Shown here: positions 38,225 through 43,213 of the stretch, piece after piece
How the letters are laid out: every line of letters begins with the position of its first letter
Position numbering within the stretch: the stretch's first letter is position 1
Source: Sulfurovum sp. TSL6
Lineage (GTDB): Bacteria > Campylobacterota > Campylobacteria > Campylobacterales > Sulfurovaceae
DNA length: 64,000 bases
Reading direction: 5' to 3'
NCBI RefSeq assembly: GCF_019972115.1
Contig: NZ_BPFJ01000002.1
Coordinates: 620,001-684,000, forward strand
The notes under the pieces: generated by a model
The model's input: the letters and a program-made list of their open reading frames with translations, nothing else
Databases searched by the model: none
Told to the model about the DNA's origin: nothing
Program-made: the position numbers and the translations under genes

Positions 38225-39907
38225 TTATACACTTTTTTTCAATGCTTCTACAATGTAATCAGCTACCCTAAATGCATTGGCATAAATAGTCCAAGTATAC
38301 GCTACAGAACCCCCGGTAGGCATAAAACTGGCATCAGCGACAAAAAGATTCTTGACATCATGAGATCGACAATATTTGTTAAGTACGGATGTTTTAGGGT
38401 CATTTCCAAAACGACATCCTCCGGCAACCAGGTTCTGAGGGGGTGCAGAAGAGATAGCAGAATAAATGTTTTTTGCTCCCATCTCTTCAAGTACCTTCTC
38501 ACACTTCTTTGCAATATAATTTCCTACTTTTATATCTTGAGGATGCCCTTCCACACGCAGTTTGCCTACGGGCATACCAAACTTGTCTTTGTGCACAGGA
38601 TCCAACGAAACAAAACAGTTATCATTAGGGAGCCAGTCATTAAAGACTTCAAAACGTATACTTTTCTGTTCTGTAAAACGAGAAACCAAACGTTCACCCA
38701 GATCTTTACCCCATACCAGTTTTCCATCTTTGTAACCATTTTTACGTGCACGACTGATAATGTTTTGATGTTCGAACATGAACTCTACAGAACCGCCTTT
38801 AAATTTTCCGTCCCACCAATGGTCTATAAAATACCAGTCCAGAATAGAACGATTGACAAAAAGCCCTGTTGTCATCAGCTCTTCAAATTTGATATGTTTC
38901 AAAGCATCCTTATGCAGTTCCCCTTGCCCGGAACCTCCAGCGGAAAAAATGAGGTTCTTACCAAGTTCTCCACTGCTGTTACCCAACCCTTCAGGATGAT
39001 GTGCATTGGCAGAGTTGAGTAAAAGCCTTGCACTCTCATGCGCTTGTGCAGCCACAACAAAGATCTTTCCTTTGATCTTTTTCTCTTTACCTGTCACAGT
39101 GTCAACCACTACGGCATGATCGACCTCATCTTTTTTGTCTGTATGTAAATACTTCACATACGTGTTACTCAGCAACGTCAGGTTACCCGTAGCTAAAGCA
39201 GGTTTCAAAAGCGCCTCTCTCGAACTTCCCTTTGCCCCTGAACTGCAGCCATAGCTTCCGCATCGGTTTGAATAATAACAGGCATCACGTCCGGGCTTGT
39301 CTTTGGAGAGGACAGCTCTTGGTGTGACAAGAGGGATAATGTCAAGTGCTTGACAACTCTTGTCAAAAAGTTTCACCACGGCATTTTCTTTGGTCGGAGG
39401 CTGTGTAAAATCTACCGTACTTCGGGGTGGTTCAAAGGGATGTTTCTCGACTTTGCCGGAAATGCCTACCAACTCTTCTGTAAGCGTATAATAGGGTTCC
39501 AACTCCTCATAGGATATGGGCCAATCTACCACATTGGCTCCTTCTATCTCTCCATATTTACTCTTGAGTCTAAAATCATCAGGGTGCAACCGATGCAACA
39601 TACCCGACATCAAGTTGGAAGATCCCCCTACGATGTTCCCGTTCCAAAAACTCCAACCTGATTCATACGTAGGCGTGGCTATCCATTCTCCATCTATTTT
39701 TTCTTCTATCGTATGATATTCGTCAAACAGATTGGGTGTGACCAGATCTCTCCTGCAGTAAGCCAACTCATCTTTAGAGAACTCTTCACGTTTGATGAGT
39801 CGACCTTTTTCTAAAACGGCTACTTTATATCCTGCTTGGCATAAAGTATAAGCTACAGCTCCGCCACTTGCTCCCGAGCCGACTATAACCACATCATACA
39901 TACTCAT
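38225..39907 (-). CDS. GMC-family oxidoreductase (gluconate 2-dehydrogenase large-subunit type)
   Basis: The protein has 560 residues from the ATG at 39907, which overlaps the stop of the upstream small-subunit gene by four bases (ATGA). The FAD-binding Rossmann start is YDVVIVGSGASGGAVAY. The GMC C-terminal region contains the SSAPPQNLVAGGCRFGN and AYTWTIYANAFRVADYI segments. The same pair is known in C. jejuni as gluconate dehydrogenase (Cj0414/Cj0415). A periplasmic location is implied by the Tat-type partner. No cytochrome c subunit gene follows. The substrate here is unproved. Confidence 0.88.
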   Translation of the reverse strand: MSMYDVVIVGSGASGGAVAYTLCQAGYKVAVLEKGRLIKREEFSKDELAYCRRDLVTPNLFDEYHTIEEKIDGEWIATPTYESGWSFWNGNIVGGSSNLMSGMLHRLHPDDFRLKSKYGEIEGANVVDWPISYEELEPYYTLTEELVGISGKVEKHPFEPPRSTVDFTQPPTKENAVVKLFDKSCQALDIIPLVTPRAVLSKDKPGRDACYYSNRCGSYGCSSGAKGSSREALLKPALATGNLTLLSNTYVKYLHTDKKDEVDHAVVVDTVTGKEKKIKGKIFVVAAQAHESARLLLNSANAHHPEGLGNSSGELGKNLIFSAGGSGQGELHKDALKHIKFEELMTTGLFVNRSILDWYFIDHWWDGKFKGGSVEFMFEHQNIISRARKNGYKDGKLVWGKDLGERLVSRFTEQKSIRFEVFNDWLPNDNCFVSLDPVHKDKFGMPVGKLRVEGHPQDIKVGNYIAKKCEKVLEEMGAKNIYSAISSAPPQNLVAGGCRFGNDPKTSVLNKYCRSHDVKNLFVADASFMPTGGSVAYTWTIYANAFRVADYIVEALKKSV

Positions 39908-40404
39908 AACTCCATATATCTTGTTGTAGGTCTCGGAAAGCCGCCATACGAGGATATCGCCTGCCACCCTGCTTCTTGAATATTTGAACCATAGATCGGA
40001 TCGCTAAAGAGTCCCTCCATTGTCAGTGTCATGATACGGGACAACCAATTACGACCATAATGTGTCTCTTCATAGGCCCGTAAAGCTTTTTCTTTCTCCT
40101 GATCTGTCATCGATATGAATCTGCCTTTTTCACGCTTCTCCAGTTCTTGTGCCCCTTCAAGGACAAACGCTTTGACGTCTTTATCAAAACTCTTGTGCAT
40201 CATAGTGTCAAACAGGAATTGTGTTACATTCATAGATTTCGCAGAAGGTATTTTGCTTCCTTCAGGAAATAAATGCTCCTGCACTGCAGAGAGTGTTGGT
40301 GCTACCTTCTTAAACCTTTTCTCAAAATTACTGACCTCTTTTGCCTGCATGTAGGGAGAGAGTCCCAAAACCGAACCTAATATGAGAAATCTTCTTCTTT
40401 TCAT
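39904..40404 (-). CDS. Gluconate 2-dehydrogenase subunit 3-like protein with twin-arginine signal
   Basis: The protein has 166 residues from the ATG at 40404; the frame continues upstream without support. The N-terminus KRRRFLILGSVLGLSP is a twin-arginine signal (RRRFL followed by a hydrophobic stretch). The rest fits the small gamma-like subunit of gluconate dehydrogenases (LSAVQEHLFPEG and the closing GWQAISSYGGFPRP). It probably hitchhikes the GMC subunit through the Tat pathway. Translation is coupled to that gene by the ATGA overlap. Confidence 0.85.
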   Translation of the reverse strand: MKRRRFLILGSVLGLSPYMQAKEVSNFEKRFKKVAPTLSAVQEHLFPEGSKIPSAKSMNVTQFLFDTMMHKSFDKDVKAFVLEGAQELEKREKGRFISMTDQEKEKALRAYEETHYGRNWLSRIMTLTMEGLFSDPIYGSNIQEAGWQAISSYGGFPRPTTRYMEL

Positions 40405-40465: not shown

Positions 40466-40506
40466 CAATACACTACACAGACACTACACAAGTTGTATAT
40501 TATACT
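40466..40506 (+). promoter_or_regulatory. Direct-repeat operator and promoter of the first cysteine-rich lipoprotein
   Basis: TACACA occurs at 40474-40479 and 40485-40490 (11-base period, as CACTACACA twice), then 10 bases and a -10 TATACT (40501-40506). The ATG is at 40538. The same pattern with the same spacing precedes the DoxX gene at 41155. Confidence 0.6.
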
Positions 40507-40537
40507 GTATGTGTCAAAAAAATAGTAGGAGACAAAT

Positions 40538-40729
40538 ATGAAAAAGTTAATTGTTAGTGCGTTCATAAGTTTGGCAATGCTTGCTTTTACCGGATGTACA
40601 AAAAACAGTACTGCAGAAGCAGATACTAAATGCTCAGCAAGCAGTAAATGTTCTGGAGCAACAAAATGTTCTGGAGACACAGTAAAAGCTGCTGCGACAA
40701 AATGTGATGCTAGTAAGAAATGTGGTTAA
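40538..40729 (+). CDS. Small cysteine-rich lipoprotein A
   Basis: The protein has 63 residues with a lipoprotein signal (lipobox FTGC, Cys 20). The mature part of about 44 residues has six more cysteines, mostly as KCS/KCD spaced by 5-10 residues (TKCSASSKCSGATKCSG), with much Ser/Thr/Lys/Ala. AGGAGA precedes the ATG. It has no enzyme-like fold; it looks like a periplasmic metal- or redox-buffering peptide. Related in style to the peptides at 40838 and 41608. Confidence 0.8.
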   Translation: MKKLIVSAFISLAMLAFTGCTKNSTAEADTKCSASSKCSGATKCSGDTVKAAATKCDASKKCG

Positions 40730-40794
40730 TAAATATAACTACTCTTTATCTTTAGCTTGAGTATATCAAGTAGATAGAGGTTTTATTTATCGCA

Positions 40795-40816
40795 TACACT
40801 TATATTACACTACACC
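40795..40816 (+). promoter_or_regulatory. TACAC direct repeats before the second cysteine-rich lipoprotein
   Basis: TACACT at 40795-40800 and again at 40806-40811, an 11-base period, 22 bases before the ATG at 40838. A -10 is less clear than at the two related sites. Confidence 0.45.
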
Positions 40817-40837
40817 ATTATTTTAAAGGATATTATC

Positions 40838-41026
40838 ATGCTAAAACTACTCTTTTGTGCACTACTGAGTTTGTCACTGTTCTCACTTACCGGATGTGAA
40901 GAGAAAGAAAACACAAACACTGGGCCTATGACAAAATGTGAAGCTGGAAAATGTGACAGTGCGATGGAAAAATCGGAAGTACCTGCTCAAAAGTGTAATG
41001 CAGATGCTAAAGATAGTGATAAATAG
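40838..41026 (+). CDS. Small cysteine-rich lipoprotein B
   Basis: The protein has 62 residues with lipobox LTGC (Cys 20), then an acidic segment and three further cysteines (TKCEAGKCDSA and QKCNADAKD). The ATG follows AAGGATATTATC. It is similar in design to the peptide at 40538, with a Glu/Asp-rich rather than Ser-rich body. The function is unknown; metal binding is a reasonable guess. Confidence 0.78.
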   Translation: MLKLLFCALLSLSLFSLTGCEEKENTNTGPMTKCEAGKCDSAMEKSEVPAQKCNADAKDSDK

Positions 41027-41078
41027 GCTCTTCGTTCTGTTCTCTTTTAAAGAGAACAGGCTTCTTTTTTTTACTCAA

Positions 41079-41111
41079 TACACACAGCGTACACATCATT
41101 CATACTATACT
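41079..41111 (+). promoter_or_regulatory. Direct-repeat operator and promoter of the DoxX/cysteine-rich peptide operon
   Basis: TACACA at 41079-41084 and 41090-41095 (11-base period), then 10 bases and TATACT (41106-41111). The spacing equals that at 40474-40506. The gene starts at 41155. Confidence 0.6.
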
Positions 41112-41154
41112 TGCACTGTAACAACAACAGATATTGTATATAAAGGAGTTACAT

Positions 41155-41592
41155 ATGCTAAAAGATATCTATCCTACCACTAGAAATATATTAAGCAAGG
41201 GTGAAGACATTGCCTTACTTTTAGCCAGACTTACTATCGCCTATGGATTTTACGGACCCGCGATGGGAAAGTGGTCAGATATATCTAGTGTTGCCACCTG
41301 GTTCGGTACCTTAGGCATCCCTTTCCCTACCTTGAATGCCTATCTGGCAGCCAGTACGGAACTGTTGGGTGTCGTGTTGTTGACATTAGGTCTATTTACA
41401 AGACTAATTTCCCTGCCGCTTATTGTGGTGATGGTTGTTGCCATTACGACTGTACATTTATCCCATGGCTTTTCGGCAGGAGACAATGGGTTTGAGATTC
41501 CTTTATACTACATGCTGTTTTTAGCAATATTTGCTTCATTTGGAGCCGGAAAATTTAGCTTGGACCACCTTCTTTTTGGTGAAGAGCAATAA
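41155..41592 (+). CDS. DoxX-family membrane protein of the cysteine-rich peptide cluster
   Basis: The protein has 145 residues from the ATG at 41155, preceded by AAGGAG at ideal distance (a TTG at 41134 is only frame extension). Four membrane helices are visible, with the DoxX pattern LLLARLTIAYGFYGPAMGKW, STELLGVVLLTLGLFTRL and PLYYMLFLAIFASFGAG. It is encoded 15 bases before the 86-residue cysteine-rich peptide, so the two should be co-expressed. In bufferin gene clusters DoxX proteins accompany small cysteine-containing metallophore peptides, which makes the pairing meaningful. Confidence 0.85.
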   Translation: MLKDIYPTTRNILSKGEDIALLLARLTIAYGFYGPAMGKWSDISSVATWFGTLGIPFPTLNAYLAASTELLGVVLLTLGLFTRLISLPLIVVMVVAITTVHLSHGFSAGDNGFEIPLYYMLFLAIFASFGAGKFSLDHLLFGEEQ

Positions 41593-41607
41593 CACAAAGG
41601 AAAAACG

Positions 41608-41868
41608 ATGAAAAAATTACTGATATTACTTGGAGCAATAGTGCTCACATTTACACTGGCAACAGCAGAGGGAAAATGTGGTAAATGTGACAGCAGTAAA
41701 AAAACTGAAACCAAATGTGACAGTGGAAAATGTGATAATGGAAAAAAAGCTGAAAAAAAATGTGACAATGGAAAATGTGACAATGGGAAAAAAACTGAAG
41801 ACAAATGTGATAGCGGTAAAAAAGCTCCAGCCAAAGGTAAATGTGGTAAAGGTAAATGTGGAGAATAA
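41608..41868 (+). CDS. Exported cysteine-rich repeat peptide
   Basis: The protein has 86 residues with a signal peptide (LLILLGAIVLTFTLATA) and no lipobox, so it is released into the periplasm. The mature part consists of about 3.5 copies of a 13-15-residue repeat of the type KCDSGKCDNGKKAEK and ends in GKCGKGKCG. Ten cysteines in about 66 residues alternate with Lys, Asp and Gly. No known family is recognised. Cys-x2/x3-Cys arrays with Asp suggest soft-metal binding (Cu, Zn, Cd); this is inference. Confidence 0.82.
   Translation: MKKLLILLGAIVLTFTLATAEGKCGKCDSSKKTETKCDSGKCDNGKKAEKKCDNGKCDNGKKTEDKCDSGKKAPAKGKCGKGKCGE
41713..41802 (+). repeat. 45-bp tandem repeat inside the cysteine-rich peptide gene
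   Basis: Two adjacent 45-base units (41713-41757 and 41758-41802) encode KCD(S/N)GKCDNGKK plus three residues each. A third partial unit follows. In-frame unit gain or loss could change metal-binding capacity. Confidence 0.8.
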
Positions 41869-41978: not shown

Positions 41979-42473
41979 ATGCGACACTTACTGATCATGC
42001 TCACACTATTATTATCTTTTGCAGGATGTGAAGACAAGGAACAGGCTGCACATGATGCCCAAATAGCACAACATGCTAGAGCAGAACTGCTTGCTGAACT
42101 TGAGGCCGAAAAGGCACTGAAACAAAAAGAGTCGCAAGAAAAAAATGAAACAAAGCTAAGCAAGATGGGAGTCCATATGGACGATGGTATTATCACGATT
42201 GATACGAATAAAACAAAAGACTTTTTTAGAGACTTAAATCAAAAGATGGCTGTACACATAAAAAAAATCTCTGATGACCTGGAAAAAGGAATCATTGAAA
42301 CCAAAGAGGCTGGAGTAGAGATGAATGAACAACATATTCATATCGACCTCAACAAAACCCAAAATCTACTTCAAGATTGGGGAAAGAAAATGCAGATTTT
42401 TGTACAAGAATTTGAAGAAGTGGCACAAACACTAGAAACGAATGAATCAAATACTACAACTAAAGGAATGTAA
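41979..42473 (+). CDS. Coiled-coil lipoprotein of unknown function
   Basis: The protein has 164 residues from the ATG at 41979 (AGGA seven bases upstream). The lipobox is FAGC (Cys 17). The mature part is highly charged and helical, with Ala/Glu/Lys-rich stretches and two similar segments (MGVHMDDGIITIDTNKTKDF and MNEQHIHIDLNKTQNL), each a short beta turn with Asn-Lys-Thr followed by an amphipathic helix. The stop overlaps the next start (TAATG), so it is coupled to the FTR-rhodanese fusion. I do not recognise the family. Confidence 0.75.
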   Translation: MRHLLIMLTLLLSFAGCEDKEQAAHDAQIAQHARAELLAELEAEKALKQKESQEKNETKLSKMGVHMDDGIITIDTNKTKDFFRDLNQKMAVHIKKISDDLEKGIIETKEAGVEMNEQHIHIDLNKTQNLLQDWGKKMQIFVQEFEEVAQTLETNESNTTTKGM

Positions 42474-43213
42474 TGCAACCCATCGATATGAACTCTGATG
42501 AATTTCAAGCTGAATTAGAAAAGACATGGACCTTTGTAGACAAAGTCAATAACCAGTTTGGTTTTGTGCTCAACCCCAATGAAGAGGTCAACGAAGGTGT
42601 GGCTATGGGACTCGCACGGAATAAACTGATCTATGGAAAGAGATTTTGTCCATGTTTCATGGTGATAGGAGAGACAAAAGAAGAACAAAAAGCCGCAGAC
42701 AACCGTGTCTGCCCATGTACCCCTGCTCTGGAAAAAGAGATCCCTGAAGATGGTACCTGCCACTGTGGGATCTTCTGTACCCCAGAGTACGCCCAGGCAC
42801 AAATGCAACATGATGCCATAGAAGAAGTCGTACATCAGCACTCTGGCGGTTTGACAAAAGAGCAAGCAGAGACTCTTCTGAAAGAAGAACAACTTGACGG
42901 AGATGAACTTGAAGCACTCATAGAAGCAAAAAACCTGGGGATGATCGATTTTACCCTGGTAGATACAAGAGAGTACATGGAGTACCAAATGGAGCATATC
43001 GTAGGGACAGACAAACTTGTACCTACTTCACAGTTCTATGCAAAAGTAGAAGAAGAACTCACAGGACTCAAAAAAGAACCTATCATCGTTTACTGTCACT
43101 CAGGAAGCAGAAGCTACCAGGTACAGCATGCAATGAAAGGCTTAGGGTTTGAGCACGTATGCAACCTAAGACCAGGGATTATCGGCTTTTCAGGTGAAAC
43201 CCAAAGAGGATAA
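42473..43213 (+). CDS. Ferredoxin:thioredoxin reductase catalytic-domain/rhodanese fusion
   Basis: The protein has 246 residues. The N-terminal half has the FTR catalytic-subunit pattern: CPC at 59-61, CPC at 80-82, CHC at 96-98 and Cys102, that is, the four [4Fe-4S] ligands plus the redox-active pair, with larger spacings than in plant FTR. The C-terminal half (about 150-246) is a rhodanese domain with active Cys208 in YCHSGSRSY. No signal peptide is seen, so it is cytosolic. The FTR part could reduce disulfides or persulfides using ferredoxin, and the rhodanese part could carry sulfane sulfur. This is plausible in a sulfur-metabolising organism. Confidence 0.87.
   Translation: MQPIDMNSDEFQAELEKTWTFVDKVNNQFGFVLNPNEEVNEGVAMGLARNKLIYGKRFCPCFMVIGETKEEQKAADNRVCPCTPALEKEIPEDGTCHCGIFCTPEYAQAQMQHDAIEEVVHQHSGGLTKEQAETLLKEEQLDGDELEALIEAKNLGMIDFTLVDTREYMEYQMEHIVGTDKLVPTSQFYAKVEEELTGLKKEPIIVYCHSGSRSYQVQHAMKGLGFEHVCNLRPGIIGFSGETQRG

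Follow-up and report, generated by a model that had tools for sequence, protein, structure and literature searches.

In the Hvf (oxazolin) system of Haemophilus influenzae, which comprises HvfA, the iron-dependent MNIO HvfB, HvfC and HvfX, the HvfA peptides are normally modified by HvfB with HvfC to give copper-binding 5-thiooxazoles (PMC13419390, PMC13097082). HvfX was still uncharacterised in a preprint of July 2026 (PMC13419390), though its NCBIfam model, NF050144, carries the name 'RiPP maturation protein'. The captophorins and bufferins (fontiphorin, Buf_EGKCG, Buf1, Buf2) are likewise exported Cys peptides encoded with DoxX proteins and built around an MNIO-PME1 core. Buf_EGKCG is listed without an MNIO in only 67 of 2583 genomes, and Leprevost et al. 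suggest that bufferin precursors unlinked to MNIO genes are either modified from another locus or left unmodified (PMC12452194). What, then, accompanies such peptides in a lineage that has no MNIO at all?

The locus described here lies in a 64,000-nucleotide stretch of DNA, the window, that corresponds to G000:C2:620001-684000 of the 2.25 Mb genome of the campylobacterotal bacterium Sulfurovum sp. TSL6. Counted from the start of the window, its features are:

38225..39904, minus strand: GMC-family flavoprotein (PF05199/PF00732), overlapping the stop codon of Gluconate_2-dh3 by a single base
39904..40404, minus strand: Gluconate_2-dh3 protein ('hitchhiker'; PF13618, 50 bits) with the twin-arginine signal MKRRRFLILG
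40474..40506, plus strand: operator TACACA-N5-TACACA-N10-TATACT (-10) before lipopeptide 1, a sequence pattern
40538..40729, plus strand: Cys-rich lipoprotein peptide 1, 63 aa, lipobox, 5 Cys after the lipobox Cys
40795..40811, plus strand: degenerate operator TACACT-N5-TACACT with no TATACT -10, a sequence pattern
40838..41026, plus strand: Cys-containing lipoprotein peptide 2, 62 aa, lipobox, 3 Cys after the lipobox Cys
41079..41111, plus strand: operator TACACA-N5-TACACA-N10-TATACT (-10) before HvfX, a sequence pattern
41155..41592, plus strand: HvfX, a DoxX-family membrane protein of 145 aa (NF050144, PF07681)
41608..41868, plus strand: secreted KC-repeat peptide, HvfA-like, 86 aa, Sec signal, 9 Cys, C-terminus KGKCGKGKCGE
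41979..42473, plus strand: lipoprotein, syntenic in the genus, its link to the peptide system uncertain
42473..43213, plus strand: fusion of a ferredoxin-thioredoxin reductase (FTR) beta (catalytic) chain with a rhodanese (PF02943 + PF00581), syntenic in the genus, its link uncertain

The original prediction was of three small exported peptides and a DoxX protein within 1.4 kb, and these are present as it described them, save that the 6, 3 and 10 mature cysteines it gave are 5, 3 and 9 by our count. The likeness it drew to bufferin-type metallophores is borne out by curated models. The DoxX protein is HvfX (NF050144, 121.4 bits against a cut-off of 80), and the peptides of relatives pass an HvfA-domain cut-off. 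The 86-residue peptide itself falls below the HvfA cut-offs (NF050137, 15.1 against 19.5 bits; NF050188, 15.0 against 95), but its counterpart in the relative L040 passes NF050137 with 21.4 bits, and other GMC-linked peptides exceed the same cut-off of 19.5 with 43 (L207), 37 (L309), 29 (L318, of the Bacteroidetes) and 26 bits (L285). The peptide/DoxX pairing that the prediction expected in relatives is found there: HvfX homologues, paralogues counted, occur in 60 of 78 genomes of the genus, and positions homologous to lipoprotein peptide 1 are present in the loci of the genus. Where we part from the prediction is over its picture of a free-standing new system of peptides and DoxX; the locus is instead a variant of the Hvf/captophorin systems that carries a Gluconate_2-dh3/GMC pair.

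With the Hvf system of H. influenzae the TSL6 locus has in common HvfX, a secreted KC(G)-repeat peptide and an operon-like grouping, and with the captophorins and bufferins the exported Cys peptides, the DoxX protein and a copper context that is read from the regulon. The differences are equally plain. The TSL6 locus has neither an MNIO (HvfB) nor a PME1 (HvfC), so that the MNIO-PME1 core of the captophorins and bufferins is missing, and it has the GMC/Gluconate_2-dh3 pair, extra lipopeptides and a TACACA operator that the H. influenzae system does not. It is a locus that works like an Hvf system, yet the MNIO by which membership is judged is not there. A search with PF05114 found no MNIO in the TSL6 genome or in any of the 78 genomes of the genus; the absence of a DUF692 gene that had been pointed out thus extends well beyond the locus, and on this search we rejected the idea of an MNIO concealed at some other site in the genome or in the genus. 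PME1 (HvfC; DUF2063/PF09836) gave no match near HvfX in the loci of the genus. Since HvfX is kept with the peptides in a genus without MNIO, its role is not tied to that enzyme.

TSL6 has a second HvfX-like gene, at G000:C1:742420-742812 (L033:5903-6343), 52% identical and over the NF050144 cut-off when its frame neighbours are included. Beside it lies a gene for a glutamate-synthase-domain FMN protein; an OmpR-type regulator and a kinase are encoded nearby, Cys peptides are not, and the arrangement is conserved in the genus. We considered this paralogue as a member of the system and rejected it, as KC peptides, called by a strict rule, occur in none of 12 such loci and the glutamate-synthase-like protein lies beside it.

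How do the two kinds of enzyme share the phylum between them? One even set of 200 Campylobacterota genomes contains 24 with HvfX over the cut-off, 9 with an MNIO over the cut-off and 23 with the GMC type found here (a GMC being called when it scored over 770 bits or, in G163, was split in two frames). Among the 24 HvfX genomes, 7 have an MNIO, 16 the GMC (the split one included), one neither and none both. The exclusivity of MNIO and GMC given HvfX has P=2.3e-5, and the association of HvfX with GMC over the 200 genomes P=8e-13, values that ignore relatedness and overstate independence because the genomes are related. In five of the HvfX genomes (G147, G153, G194, G222, G230) the GMC pair is encoded away from the HvfX locus. 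In the tree of HvfX the proteins from MNIO and GMC loci interleave; a single ancient clade of MNIO loci is rejected (p-AU 0.0013), and within genus g4 one MNIO genome and one GMC genome form a supported pair. When only well-supported branches are used, two independent pairs are left, both of which lie in the expected direction in nearly all random pairings.

The gene orders differ as well. MNIO loci read peptide-MNIO-PME1-HvfX, with one locus HvfX-peptide-MNIO-PME1. In the genus of TSL6 the GMC and Gluconate_2-dh3 genes are divergent from a lipopeptide(s)-HvfX-peptide unit, and elsewhere the orders peptide-HvfX-Gluconate_2-dh3-GMC and peptide-HvfX-glutamate-synthase-like protein-Gluconate_2-dh3-GMC are found. 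Three loci (L205, L206, L207) read peptide-Gluconate_2-dh3-GMC with no HvfX nearby, and in a Bacteroidetes record (L318) Gluconate_2-dh3-GMC is convergent with an EGKCG lipoprotein. We note that in L205 (3928-4596) and L206 (4421-4837) the peptide directly upstream of the enzyme pair is a Met-rich KCG peptide, copper-ligand-like, in genomes where no HvfX passes the cut-off. Among the matches listed, 80 records (genome_contigs) had a GMC alignment, and the GMC gene was readable in 79; of these 79 loci, 78 have Gluconate_2-dh3 and none an MNIO. By the strict rule, KC peptides were called on 37 of 72 campylobacterotal GMC contigs, many of which end short, and in all 13 GMC loci chosen from other families; none was called in 61 control loci or in 6 gammaproteobacterial GMC loci. 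These six (L305, L310, L311, L314, L316, L319) have the same non-canonical GMC with Gluconate_2-dh3 and neither a KC peptide nor HvfX in the neighbourhood; the pair of L305 is preceded by a thioredoxin-fold-like gene. The counts therefore tie this GMC group to KC peptides in the Campylobacterota, and not everywhere. The Gluconate_2-dh3/GMC pair of TSL6 (38225-40404), which lay outside the coordinates first drawn around the peptides and HvfX, is best read as part of the peptide system.

What sort of enzyme is the flavoprotein? Its best match in the PDB is the FAD glucose dehydrogenase 6a2u (E=5e-40, full length), and fructose dehydrogenase is also homologous; with these dehydrogenase complexes of a GMC alpha and a Tat hitchhiker gamma subunit it further shares a Tat-type small partner and the 3Fe-4S cysteines. 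The three Cys of that site are kept and align to Cys212, Cys218 and Cys222 of BcGDH (PMC6719666). An RRx[FLMIV] motif stands near the start of 41 of 44 Gluconate_2-dh3 homologues. Unlike the known complexes, the TSL6 enzyme is linked to Cys peptides, no multihaem cytochrome subunit was recognised beside its gene, and the active site is altered. In 23 of 23 GMC sequences the catalytic His (NNHITG) has become Leu (NL[VIQ]AGG[CA]RFG) and the catalytic Asn (GTVNVT) Ala or Pro. Nine further copies have the same altered signature, so that both residues are lost in all 32 examined, and the FAD-linking His is also missing. With the catalytic residues and the FAD-linking His gone, it is unlikely that this GMC is an ordinary sugar or alcohol dehydrogenase.

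Canonical Campylobacter-type GMCs (L202-L204) retain both catalytic residues. The canonical campylobacterotal GMC/Gluconate_2-dh3 pairs (family f10, genus g24, and family f13) were considered as the same thing and rejected, as the catalytic residues are present and there are no peptides. The Cys of GGCRFG was likewise tried as a new catalytic residue and dropped; it is Ala in genus g25, and its position matches one at which many GMC enzymes carry a Cys. Thiol oxidation does occur in the GMC fold. The 5-hydroxymethylfurfural oxidase HMFO oxidises thiols to thiocarbonyls (PMC7414962 and its reference 7), but HMFO is an oxidase and not an Fe-S dehydrogenase, and its catalytic His467 is Leu in the TSL6 protein. 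Because the His used by thiol-oxidising enzymes such as HMFO is missing, the chemistry of the TSL6 GMC cannot be read from its sequence; a thiolate substrate, we infer, would need no catalytic base.

The regulatory sequences point toward copper. The original prediction placed TACACA-N5-TACACA-N10-TATACT at the first and third of three sites, and there it is, letter for letter; repeats occur at all three, but the middle one lacks the TATACT element. The looser pattern TACACW-N4..6-TACACW-N9..11-TATAMT has two matches in the 2.25 Mb genome, both at the cluster, and none in a reversed control, while TACACA-N5-TACACR-N9..11-TATAMT has 98 matches in the 78 genomes of the genus, 49 of them (a count of positions) at the peptide cluster, against one in the control. 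Chance occurrence, the outcome that had been named as damaging, is rejected for the full pattern. The half-motif TACAC-N6-TACAC alone, with 13 genome matches against 5 in the reversed control, is only weakly enriched and close to background. Operators before the lipopeptide and before HvfX are kept in many members of the genus. In another family the TACACA-N5-TACACA pair precedes peptides (L108, L111, L118, L049) with varying -10 elements, and in L108 and L111 the operator precedes the unit that contains Gluconate_2-dh3 and GMC. An MNIO-type locus (L106) also has the TACACA pair ahead of its peptide gene, with a different -10 spacing. Between operator and Gluconate_2-dh3, L108 (+2251..+2442 from the HvfX start) and L111 (+2272..+2457) have a conserved ORF of 61-63 aa (MCIPxG...KPKKHIKK...KGDPDFVDE).

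Which other genes stand behind this operator? In relatives within the genus they include a copper P-type ATPase (G015, L217; TIGR01511, 408 bits, cut-off 397), a gene similar to one (G254, L193), the copper-resistance multicopper oxidase CopA (G272, L236; TIGR01480, 804 bits, cut-off 479), a multicopper-oxidase-like gene (G247, L189) and an HMA-domain protein (L230). In the TSL6 genome itself the pattern search did not find the operator before Cu-ATPase or CopA-type genes. A small secreted c-type cytochrome (CxxCH) lies behind the operator in three genomes, and behind a weaker form in TSL6; the protein, with C[TS][SP]CHGTPFYMAKQ, is encoded at L160 (G000:C1:133114), L182, L191 and L232. A recurrent small membrane peptide (..NIIFVSIFIGTMLLFMLGTVIYVTSQVxNCSS..) is also found behind the operator in the genus (L174, L176, L190, L196, L198). 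In the related families f19 and f10, an OmpR/PhoB-type response regulator and a kinase directly follow HvfX, and the best TSL6 match to that regulator, with 49% identity, is encoded at C3:312662. The suggestion of an OmpR/PhoB-type operator is well supported, because the operator is shared with copper genes and such regulators adjoin HvfX in relatives. To judge from the regulon in those relatives, copper is probably the inducing signal.

On these grounds we lean, if only somewhat, toward reading the locus as an MNIO-less Hvf (oxazolin/captophorin) copper-peptide system, copper-induced and periplasmic, in which a Tat-exported flavoprotein replaces the MNIO. The computed basis for this is HvfX membership, the absence of MNIO, the way in which the two enzyme pairs exclude each other and interleave, the peptide-GMC linkage, the conserved operator with its copper genes in relatives, and the altered active site. 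A possible course of events is that the two TACACA promoters are switched on by a regulator of the OmpR/PhoB type, most likely one that responds to copper, and that the two lipoprotein peptides and the secreted KC-repeat peptide reach the periplasm by Sec, where their Lys-Cys repeats would ligate Cu(I), or else some other thiophilic metal. From its place in the inner membrane, HvfX would serve the peptides as it does in MNIO systems. HvfB and HvfC (MNIO/PME1) would be replaced by the Tat-exported Gluconate_2-dh3 hitchhiker and the GMC flavoprotein, with its FAD and 3Fe-4S site. The flavoprotein might then oxidise peptide cysteines or Cu-thiolates in the periplasm, electrons passing from it via the Fe-S site to a c-type cytochrome, for which the small operator-linked cytochrome is a candidate.

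A possible, if doubtful, alternative is that the peptides buffer copper in the manner of metallothioneins, unmodified and kept with HvfX after loss of the MNIO, and that the GMC/Gluconate_2-dh3 pair is a co-regulated neighbouring dehydrogenase with some other substrate. In the MNIO loci 96% of cysteines precede Gly or Ala, whereas in the peptides of the genus only 50% do, so that these may be unmodified. For the MNIO FonBC, substitutions at the residue after Cys are all blocking except Ala (PMC13097082), a restriction with which the relaxed peptides of the genus contrast. This lost preference is the strongest objection to the flavoprotein reading, as it would fit unmodified metallothionein-like peptides equally well. 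Further points against that reading are the sub-cut-off HvfA scores of the TSL6 peptides, the divergent orientation of the GMC genes in the genus, the five HvfX genomes whose GMC pair is located apart, and the 37 of 72 campylobacterotal contigs on which alone the strict rule called a peptide. The peptide-less GMC loci of the Gammaproteobacteria and the nearness of the GMC to sugar dehydrogenases are on the same side. Yet Gly still follows Cys at 89% of positions in GMC loci of other families, and the catalytic residues of a sugar dehydrogenase are the very ones lost. Also against this alternative are the ties of the GMC pair to the peptides under varied gene orders, among them HvfX-less operons and the Bacteroidetes EGKCG arrangement, and its mutual exclusivity with MNIO among HvfX genomes.

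Sulfurovum is a genus of sulfur oxidisers, and the close relatives of the GMC gene among the matches listed are mostly records of that name. Could the locus be a sulfur or thiol redox module, in which HvfX and the Cys peptides, together with the FTR-rhodanese fusion, deal with sulfane sulfur or with oxidative stress and not with copper? Across the genus the fusion and the adjacent lipoprotein are syntenic with it, and a DoxX homologue elsewhere guards against oxidative or sulfur stress (Leprevost et al., PMC12452194). We think this improbable: the fusion does not accompany HvfX in other families, the TACACA pattern was not found before the lipoprotein gene at 41979, copper genes stand behind the operator in relatives, and Met-rich KCG peptides accompany the GMC in another family (L205, L206). 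A last alternative is that the peptides are modified by an MNIO which is too divergent for PF05114 to recognise or which the assemblies lack. The genomes of some relatives are drafts, and four first-look candidates were scored in the TSL6 genome, but all four failed to reach E=0.001, no MNIO was found in any of the 40 genomes of the genus with completeness of 90% or more and contamination of 5% or less, and elsewhere in the phylum the MNIOs that pass the cut-off do so with at least 273 bits, so that this already disfavoured explanation is very improbable.

To return to the MNIO-less Hvf system with a flavoprotein, a bolder extension is that the Tat-exported GMC and its hitchhiker represent a new class of RiPP maturase, one that oxidises the cysteines of Hvf-type peptides after export in a His-less site adapted to thiolates, and passes the electrons to the respiratory chain with no direct use of O2. 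In this full form we hold the proposal to be speculative and rather unlikely. In the literature library searched, no paper was found that ties GMC oxidoreductases to Hvf/captophorin-type peptides. A maturase role, if true, would give a function to a GMC group with at least 570 relatives, whose family names suggest sugar or alcohol dehydrogenases even though the catalytic residues are missing. That flavoprotein pairs have repeatedly taken the place of the iron oxygenase (MNIO) pair next to these peptides leads us to expect one of two things: another chemistry by which copper-binding peptides can be made, or a part for both enzymes in holding the peptide thiols in a given state.
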